Part shown: in pieces, positions 52,077 through 52,480 of the stretch
How positions within the stretch are numbered: position 1 is the first letter of the stretch
How the letters are laid out: each line of letters starts with the position of its first letter
From: Hymenobacter psychrotolerans DSM 18569
Lineage (GTDB): Bacteria > Bacteroidota > Bacteroidia > Cytophagales > Hymenobacteraceae
Assembly: GCF_900142395.1 (NCBI RefSeq)
Contig: NZ_FRAS01000008.1
Coordinates: forward strand, 1-64,000
DNA length: 64,000 nucleotides
Reading direction: 5' to 3'
The notes under the pieces: generated by a model
The model's database searches: none
Seen by the model: only the letters and a program-made list of their open reading frames with translations
What the model was told of the DNA's origin: nothing
Made by a program: the position numbers and the translations under genes

Positions 52077-52100
52077 GCTCGGCGGCACGGTTGCAAATGG

Positions 52101-52133
52101 TTGCAATTCGTTCCAAAACAAAGTCTATATTTG
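52101..52133 (+). promoter_or_regulatory. promoter of the candidate structured RNA
   Basis: The -7 box TATATTTG at 52126-52133 and TTGC at 52101-52104 as a -33 element, with a 21-bp spacer. The box is framed by TTCGTTCCAA (from 52107) and TTGGAAACGAA (to 52149), an imperfect inverted repeat that could be an operator. The TTGCAAATGGTTGCAA direct repeat lies just upstream. Confidence 0.6.
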
Positions 52134-52139
52134 TTACGT

Positions 52140-52395
52140 TGGAAACGAAAGTAGCAGAGAGCAACTGCCCCCTGCTACCATTTCCGCTACGGACCGAACA
52201 GGAGGAAAAGTCCTCCCACACCGCCCAAAGCAGCTACCACCTTTACAGCAAAGGCAGTAGTCACTTGGATCGAGCATTCAAAGTGAAGCCCGTCCAAATC
52301 AGCACGTCTCGTACCCATGACCAAATGGATTTGAGGGTGGCCAAAACACCCTTCTTATCCTGAAGCCCGTGTTCCCGCACGGGCTTCGCTGTTTT
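52140..52395 (+). ncRNA. candidate structured small RNA (~255 nt)
   Basis: Between kdsA and a converging methyltransferase gene lies a unit with its own promoter (52101-52133) and a rho-independent-like terminator (GAAGCCCGTG / CACGGGCTTC, 52362-52387). In between are clear complementary segments: GGAAA..GTAGCAG with CTGCTAC..TTTCC (52141-52186), GGAGGA/TCCTCC around AAAG (about 52200-52215), and CCAAATC (52294-52300) with GATTTG (52328-52333). One frame stays open through part of it, but it lacks an ATG after the transcription start and has no coding bias. It was not recognised as 6S, SRP, RNase P or tmRNA. Confidence 0.5.
52362..52395 (+). terminator. terminator of the candidate RNA
   Basis: A 10-bp GC-rich stem with TTCCCG loop, followed by GCTGTTTTC. 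The T-run is only moderate. Confidence 0.6.
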
Positions 52396-52480
52396 CAGGC
52401 AGCCGTGTTGGCGGGGTGACAACCGTACGTATTGCCAAATATACTAGCAATGCAGGGTATAGAGTTGTCGGTTACGTTGA

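Follow-up and report, generated by a model that had tools for sequence, protein, structure and literature searches.

The window analysed here is a 64,000-nucleotide stretch of Hymenobacter psychrotolerans DSM 18569 (contig NZ_FRAS01000008.1, positions 1–64,000), and its gap between kdsA and a methyltransferase gene probably holds a type I toxin-antitoxin-like module that belongs to a new family in Hymenobacter. Four properties of this family were found by computation: the minus-strand open reading frame (ORF) is under purifying selection, two -7 boxes face one another, the leader of the ORF covaries, and the complementarity between the 5' end of the predicted mRNA and the ORF is conserved. Toxicity, a membrane target, transcription and antisense repression are the functions that we infer for the module.

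In the proposed mechanism, the minus strand would be transcribed from a -7 box at 52443–52436, producing an mRNA with a folded leader. The protein made from this mRNA would have 43 residues and be hydrophobic and helix-forming. From a second -7 box, at 52126–52133, the plus strand would be transcribed into an antisense RNA that spans the entire ORF and ends at hairpin II of the leader. Should the supply of antisense RNA fail, the small protein would build up and damage the membrane of the cell that makes it. The fold of the toxin-candidate mRNA may also regulate translation. The first-pass annotation had proposed a free-standing structured RNA on the plus strand and missed the ORF on the minus strand and the promoter that serves it.

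The small protein

The toxin candidate is an ORF of 43 codons plus a stop, located at 52318–52187 on the minus strand. When 59 related genomes were searched at the DNA level, one nearly full-length relative (locus L002 in genome G018) and partial ones came up, and what is conserved on the minus strand in these relatives is a short frame, which reads MGTRRADLDGLHFECSIQVTTAFAVKVVAALGGVGGLFLLFGP in the window and MDKGRTNMDGLQFECSIHVTTTFMVKVVAALGGIGGVYLLFGL in L002. Larger searches, described below, gave 115 copies with an ORF of 36–52 amino acids, and the ratio of nonsynonymous to synonymous substitution rates (dN/dS) was calculated for 71 of them in five groups set by regular expressions; the 44 ORFs left out fit no expression, although many are plainly of the MGKRAK type and three (L122, L133 and L134) plainly belong to group A. 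Pairs whose dS was undefined or extreme in either direction were removed (leaving 121/136, 58/66, 26/28, 100/105 and 170/171). The group medians were then 0.22, 0.24, 0.41, 0.36 and 0.32, and dN/dS was below 1 in 121/121, 58/58, 23/26, 99/100 and 170/170 of the usable pairs, which are not independent of one another. The window ORF falls in group A, with its 121 usable pairs and median of 0.22. Third codon positions are the most variable in each of the five groups. The minus-strand ORF is under purifying selection and is protein-coding.

Type I toxins are usually under 60 amino acids long and hydrophobic, with a putative transmembrane helix and cationic residues. The 43 residues of the window peptide and the 36–52 of its relatives lie within this size range. 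Net charge is positive in 58 of 59 peptides and 0 in that of the window. Hydropathy is moderate to high: its maximum Kyte-Doolittle mean over 19 residues is at least 1.2 in 51 of the 59 and at least 1.6 in 25 (2.12 in the window). A single-sequence prediction models the window peptide as one helix spanning residues 4–41, with a predicted local distance difference test (pLDDT) score of 82. An Arg-Ala, Arg-Thr or Arg-Val pair occurs within the first nine residues of 52 out of 60 peptides. Three of the 115 ORFs (L255, L285 and L311), which look truncated or spurious, were excluded from the peptide, pairing and folding statistics. The MGKRAK-type peptides end ..GGAVRAVVSHWL.., which by eye recalls Ldr.

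Database searches linked the peptides to no established toxin family. Five Pfam families matched the 59 members of alignment A4 at an expectation value (E) of 0.1 or lower (best 0.02), with no toxin family among them, and nine peptides had no NCBIfam match at E ≤ 10. PADLOC produced no significant match. The 12 matches in PHROGs were weak (best 0.0013), eleven of them without a named function, and profile A5, which represents the MGKRAK type only, had chance-level matches in the PDB and found no solved toxin chain there.

Two facing -7 boxes

The -7 box of the small-protein mRNA, TATATTTG, was read directly at 52443–52436 on the minus strand, and the pattern TANNTTYR stands at the same fixed place in 100 of the 115 relatives with an ORF of 36–52 amino acids, as against a mean of 4.7 in shuffled sequences. 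After dereplication the count is 53/62, with a shuffle mean of 1.9. The box of the opposing promoter, also TATATTTG, was read directly at 52126–52133 on the plus strand. Among the 114 relatives that have such an ORF and enough flanking sequence, the opposing box CAAANNTA (the reverse complement of TANNTTTG) occurs 36–106 nucleotides past the stop codon in 80. By chance, 100 rounds of dinucleotide shuffling yield a mean of 4.6 and a maximum of 10, and the other strand yields 2; the dereplicated figures are 38/62 versus 2.7 in shuffles (maximum 7) and 1 on the other strand. A looser pattern is found in 97/114 versus 17.8 in shuffles. Since these counts lie far above those of the shuffles, the two facing promoters belong to the module. 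The plus-strand promoter points back into the minus-strand gene, and the predicted plus-strand RNA is therefore antisense to the small-protein mRNA.

The plus-strand promoter is the one described by the first-pass annotation and is present as described, with the -33 element TTGC at 52101–52104, a 21-nucleotide spacer and the -7 box, together spanning 52101–52133; the TTGC element was read in the window only. The GC-rich hairpin that the annotation placed at 52362–52387 is there as well, is followed by GCTGTTTT on the plus strand and was detected by a terminator scan. This is hairpin II of the sense leader, which doubles as the predicted antisense terminator. The predicted antisense RNA, a putative antitoxin of about 250 nucleotides, corresponds to the RNA of the earlier description and would cover 52139–52395 of the plus strand, as judged from its promoter and terminator. 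On the sense side, the terminator scan also detected a terminator-like hairpin at 52179–52150 on the minus strand, and on the plus strand this stem would be the hairpin at the 5' end of the antisense RNA. In 52 of 59 relatives, the sequence that follows the stop codon folds with a z-score below -2.

Both strands fold stably. The plus-strand RNA at 52139–52395 has a z-score of -5.77 and the minus strand at 52435–52145 folds better, with a z-score of -6.84; in each case none of 200 shuffles was equally stable.

The structured leader

The leader and first codons, at 52307–52435 on the minus strand, constitute a conserved structured mRNA region, which matches covariance model R1 with 101.3 bits, a score that is not independent because the window is one of the 38 leaders from which R1 was built. 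Two hairpins lie within it. The covarying stem of hairpin II is 99.7% paired, and hairpin III (GGAT..GGGTG / CACCC..ATCC, 52327–52360 on the minus strand), a covarying helix, lies directly upstream of the start codon.

The first-pass annotation had asked for covarying stems in related genomes, and the leader stems do covary. In the 62 dereplicated leaders (alignment A3 holds 62 of the 63 sources supplied), standard pairs fill 97.4% of the pair cells, and both sides have changed in 12 of the 18 pairs. None of 500 shuffles scored as high, and sliding the partners by 1–3 columns reduces the value to 29–52%. This result is favoured, because the alignment was fitted to the model. In the MAFFT alignment A2, which was not so fitted, RNAalifold proposed the same 18 pairs, of which 8 are changed on both sides. 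Wobbles are of the minus-strand kind, with 62 G-U versus 11 A-C cells, although one pair supplies 42 of the 62. Judged from these alignments, it is on the minus strand that the leader is conserved as an RNA.

In hairpin III, RGGTG covaries with a CACCY segment on each side, which makes a three-way covariation of the form CACCY / RGGTG / CACCY. In the window, the 5' segment is CACCC at 52414–52418 (minus strand). Among 61 dereplicated copies, RGGTG and its 5' partner, whose class comes from hand-made patterns, combine as G-C in 36, A-T in 22 and G-T in 2, with 1 undetermined; the 3' partner gives G-C in 29, A-T in 21, G-T in 5 and another or no combination in 6. RGGTG was unmatched in 7/147 copies (1/62 dereplicated). 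Because the 3' partner dominates in Vienna folding, pairing with the 5' CACCY may represent an early or alternative state.

At the gathering score, Rfam returned tRNA only for the window and 12 loci with divergent copies, which agrees with the earlier remark that the element resembles no common RNA.

Predicted pairing of the mRNA 5' end with its own reading frame

The leader begins with YGYACGG and about codons 4–6 of the ORF read CGTRCR. In the window, the 5'-end segment CGTACGG (52423–52429, minus strand) is complementary to CGTGC in codons 5–6 (52302–52306, minus strand). Over 60 copies, the duplex of each 5' end with its own ORF has a mean energy of -10.36 kcal/mol. When ORF starts were permuted among copies the mean was -8.57 kcal/mol, and 0/500 permutations were as low. 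Dinucleotide-shuffled ORF starts gave -6.42 kcal/mol and synonymous recodings -6.45 kcal/mol; none of 100 recoding runs was as low, and the native ORF was better than its recodings in 60/60 copies.

Codon choice is biased in the same place. The Arg codon of the N-terminal motif is CGT in 50/52 cases versus 17/154 of the other Arg codons in the same ORFs, and CGT accounts for 19/145 Arg codons in seven genes of the window. Two positions covary in the 53 of 60 copies that have both motifs: the first is C-G in 36, T-A in 9, T-G in 6, C-A in 1 and C-T in 1, and the second is C-G in 35, T-A in 9, C-T in 3, C-A in 2, C-C in 2, T-G in 1 and A-G in 1. Fisher values for these two tables take no account of shared ancestry and should not be taken as probabilities. 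Pairing probabilities were calculated for 59 copies. When the leader was folded together with about 30 coding bases, pairing between the 5' arm and the start region had a probability above 0.5 in 53/59 (median 0.95); in full-length RNAs this was so in 36/59 (median 0.67). A possible second helix, which would join the start region to the 13 leader bases that follow YGYACGG, was only weakly better than with permuted partners (29/1000 as low; 54 copies, those without the motifs being excluded). Given the complementarity and the CGT bias, part of the protein sequence appears to be imposed by the way the RNA folds.

Bacteroidota mRNAs lack Shine-Dalgarno sequences. We lean, by a small degree, towards a broader proposal, in which the type I modules of Hymenobacter form a large family that evolved in Bacteroidota, apparently independently of known families. 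Here, the 5' end of the mRNA would fold onto the first codons instead of hiding a ribosome-binding site, so that the fold would dictate the N-terminal Arg-Ala/Thr motif and a CGT codon in otherwise diverse peptides.

These results bear on the free-standing plus-strand non-coding RNA of the first-pass annotation, for which the minus-strand ORF would be incidental. Its promoter, terminator and stable fold are real, and since the -7 box and terminator hairpin recur in relatives, a promoted and terminated plus-strand RNA of about 250 nucleotides is plausible. However, the minus-strand ORF evolves as coding sequence, its -7 box stands at a fixed place, and the CGT bias and 5'-end/ORF covariation make sense in a minus-strand RNA. 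The annotation had itself named coding conservation of the overlapping frame as evidence against its RNA; such conservation exists, but on the opposite strand. The lone-RNA reading thus survives in part, since the plus-strand RNA makes better sense as the antisense partner in a coding module; as a structured RNA standing by itself it is very improbable and already largely refuted.

Distribution in Hymenobacter

When the leader DNA was searched against 120 genus genomes, 46 had a match at E ≤ 0.01, and R1 raised this to 96/120 at the same threshold, with 89 at E ≤ 1e-5 (counted from the match table), often with several matches each. One genome (G134) has up to 14 R1 matches, a few such matches being partial ones to hairpin II on the other strand, and another (G061) has at least nine full-length ones. 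The genome of the window has three. Its second copy (L182:2403–2532, contig C29) has kept the leader and -7 box and has an ORF that stops after 17 codons; in the third (L183, contig C56) the ORF is intact.

From the matches listed, a sample of 147 copies was chosen and cut out. A recurring layout was seen in these copies: a sense -7 box, the leader, an ORF of about 40–50 codons and an opposing -7 box. The ORF is 36–52 amino acids long in 115 of the 147, while the remaining 32 lack an intact ORF through stops, frameshifts or lost starts, or consist of the leader only before unrelated sequence. In the 62 dereplicated copies, the ATG lies 112–130 bases past the start of the model. Presence or absence of the module differs between species.

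Plasmids of Hymenobacter also carry copies, with three good and two weak matches, two of which were confirmed with R1. The confirmed copies, L324 (pHsw1, a plasmid of H. swuensis DY53) and L325 (p_unnamed1), score 118.3 and 93.4 bits and lie in stretches without a listed gene; PLSDB, whose gene table has gaps, records no gene at any of the three best plasmid matches. Plasmid carriage rests on these matches to plasmid records, and the short copy-bearing contigs (5–12 kb) may be assembly fragments.

Such a dispersed, multi-copy distribution, with leader-only remnants before unrelated sequence, would also suit a selfish RNA or DNA repeat that copies itself through the leader and has the peptide as part of its propagation or as cargo. 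A module of 300 nucleotides could not, however, hold a transposase; most of the sampled copies diverge from one another (dereplication leaves 62 of 115), and both -7 boxes occur together with the ORF. We regard a selfish repeat as highly unlikely.

At the kdsA site the module is found in 15 genomes including that of the window, each time between convergent genes. In eight kdsA loci of named Hymenobacter, R1 finds the module at the site in one (L013); a second (L019) has a weak R1 match elsewhere (E 7.5e-4). The site is informative for the view that the element is a leader peptide or attenuator governing a downstream gene, to which a short ORF within a structured leader would be suited. Beyond the ORF, however, come first a hairpin and then a promoter that points the other way, and in all 15 copies at the kdsA site the gene next on that side is kdsA itself, which runs in the opposite direction. 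Because the neighbouring genes converge, neither promoter serves a downstream gene at these copies, and there is hardly any probability left for attenuation.

A less readily dismissed alternative is that the same two-transcript layout controls a small, non-toxic membrane protein, for example a regulatory, stress or signalling peptide under antisense control. Purifying selection, and the finding of the module at the kdsA site of 15 genomes, suit a useful protein equally well, and hydropathy stays below 1.6, a value typical of a membrane span, in 34/59 peptides. By comparison, the many divergent copies per genome (at least nine full-length matches in G061), the 32/147 copies without an intact ORF, plasmid carriage and the differences in presence or absence between species suit a toxin-antitoxin module better than they do a housekeeping regulator. 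A non-toxin peptide is therefore unlikely, while deserving some weight.

Several observations weigh against the preferred type I toxin-antitoxin reading. The window peptide has a net charge of 0, and a 19-residue Kyte-Doolittle mean of 1.6 is reached by just 25/59 peptides. The strict opposing box is missing in 34/114 relatives and even the loose one, which is expected by chance in 17.8, is missing in 17/114. A T-rich tail follows the sense hairpin in just 12/59 relatives by a crude count. The long-range pairing in the window contains a G-U and has a probability of 0.61 in the full-length RNA. Occlusion of the start codon was considered as the way in which the fold might act; in full-length RNAs the start region has a median of 0.47 unpaired versus 0.37 in shuffles, and because it is no less accessible than in shuffles, simple occlusion of the start is not supported. 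Finally, the statistics ignore the common descent of the copies.

Search outside the genus

Beyond Hymenobacter, no convincing copy was found in the sampled genomes (291 in the order and 296 in the phylum sample). R1 had weak matches in five non-genus genomes of the order (E 0.002–0.01) and in three of the phylum sample (E 1.8e-6, 1.8e-4 and 6.8e-4). One locus was read for each of these eight: a hairpin is there, but no ATG-started ORF of 28–80 codons begins near the end of the model. The least clear of the eight is L319:1501–1624, from genome G476 of another family of the phylum (E 1.8e-6). Its middle (CACCCCGAC.. AAAAACAGCGAAGCCC .. GGGCTTCAGGATAA) is much like the Hymenobacter leader, and it has no fitting ORF or -7 box; it may be a chance match, a remnant or a distant relative. 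Profile A5 has members in four genomes of the genus among 148, and its one weak non-genus match sits inside a 258-codon frame. One peptide was searched against phage records, with no match. Distant relatives may be missed by these searches, because the collections are incomplete, large searches were more strictly filtered and the model is derived from the genus.

Comparison with known systems

The comparisons below are made by description. The module would work like aapA/IsoA of Helicobacter pylori and other Epsilonproteobacteria, where a long-distance interaction and transient hairpins restrain translation of the mRNA (PMC6733600). The likenesses are several chromosomal copies, a small peptide ORF and long-distance pairing within the mRNA (PMC6733600). 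The 5' end of the Hymenobacter mRNA is predicted to pair with the first codons, whereas that of aapA pairs with the 3' end of its mRNA; the ORF has about 40–50 amino acids versus 30 in AapA3, and the predicted antisense RNA about 250 nucleotides versus 80 in IsoA3. The promoters in Hymenobacter are of the Bacteroidota -7 type, unlike those of aapA/IsoA.

Small helical peptides are also a feature of the Ldr and Fst systems (LdrD/RdlD and Fst), and the structure of LdrD is 5LBJ (PMC8309996). They differ from the Hymenobacter family in leader, promoters and phylum, and the latter has no Pfam or NCBIfam toxin-family match. In the same phylum, transcript data from one species, Bacteroides thetaiotaomicron, have yielded putative type I pairs with cis-antisense RNAs, candidate short ORFs and TAnnTTTG promoters (PMC7366714). 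In the genomes sampled, the leader model of Hymenobacter gave no convincing match beyond its own genus. A type I system outside Proteobacteria, Firmicutes and Tenericutes, as the Hymenobacter module would be, is msoT1/msoA1 of the cyanobacterium Microcystis, found via a search for layout (PMC12390103). That organism is unrelated, and expression of the toxin was assayed there, in E. coli. According to the same 2025 source, the type I systems known until the cyanobacterial case were confined to Proteobacteria, Firmicutes and Tenericutes (PMC12390103).

Within the open-access literature, which leaves subscription papers and preprints outside its scope, no report of a type I system in Hymenobacter was found, and for Bacteroidota the only type I candidates found were the putative B. 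thetaiotaomicron pairs (PMC7366714). The module looks like an undescribed family in a phylum where type I genes are barely known. With matches in 96/120 genomes of the genus, the family offers ready natural variants for studying how an antisense-controlled toxin may be silenced without Shine-Dalgarno pairing. The leader model is also a practical route to annotating such genes, which are unlisted at the three best plasmid matches, and the plasmid copies could have a role in plasmid retention.

The kdsA gap and unusual copies

The gap that the first-pass annotation described is bounded by the end of kdsA (52076) and the end of the convergent methyltransferase ORF (52528), both names being readings of the ORFs by the annotation and by us. 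Relatives of kdsA turned up across Bacteroidota. A plus-strand ORF of 90 codons (52091–52363) was set aside: its start lies upstream of the plus-strand promoter, and the coding signal is on the minus strand. The inverted repeat TTCGTTCCAA / TTGGAAACGAA (52108–52117 / 52139–52149), which had been put forward as an operator around the -7 box, is present. Inspected by eye, it is retained in the close copy L122 and is gone in L126–L131, and because these relatives do not retain it, the operator role is not supported.

At relaxed E, Rfam gave six sub-threshold matches in four loci. Part of the sar antisense RNA aligned over hairpin II (L182:2449–2482, minus strand; 30.1 bits versus 43 required), probably through a shared terminator shape. 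A match to mir-3119 (56.2 of 80 bits, E 2.7e-10) lies outside the module at L182:3815–3901, and those to DUF3085, U4, EF3314_EF3315 and DUF805b were likewise below threshold.

Some copies have an unusual arrangement. In L005 (G019) two intact copies with identical peptides stand in tandem, about 1.3 kb apart, and in L177 (G070) an intact copy adjoins a degenerate one. A nearly identical copy is found at L272, L273 and L274 (G085, G141 and G018, respectively), in which the leader is kept, an early stop closes the frame, and the sequence downstream does not resemble that of the other families. This copy may be a derivative reduced to the leader, with a role of its own.
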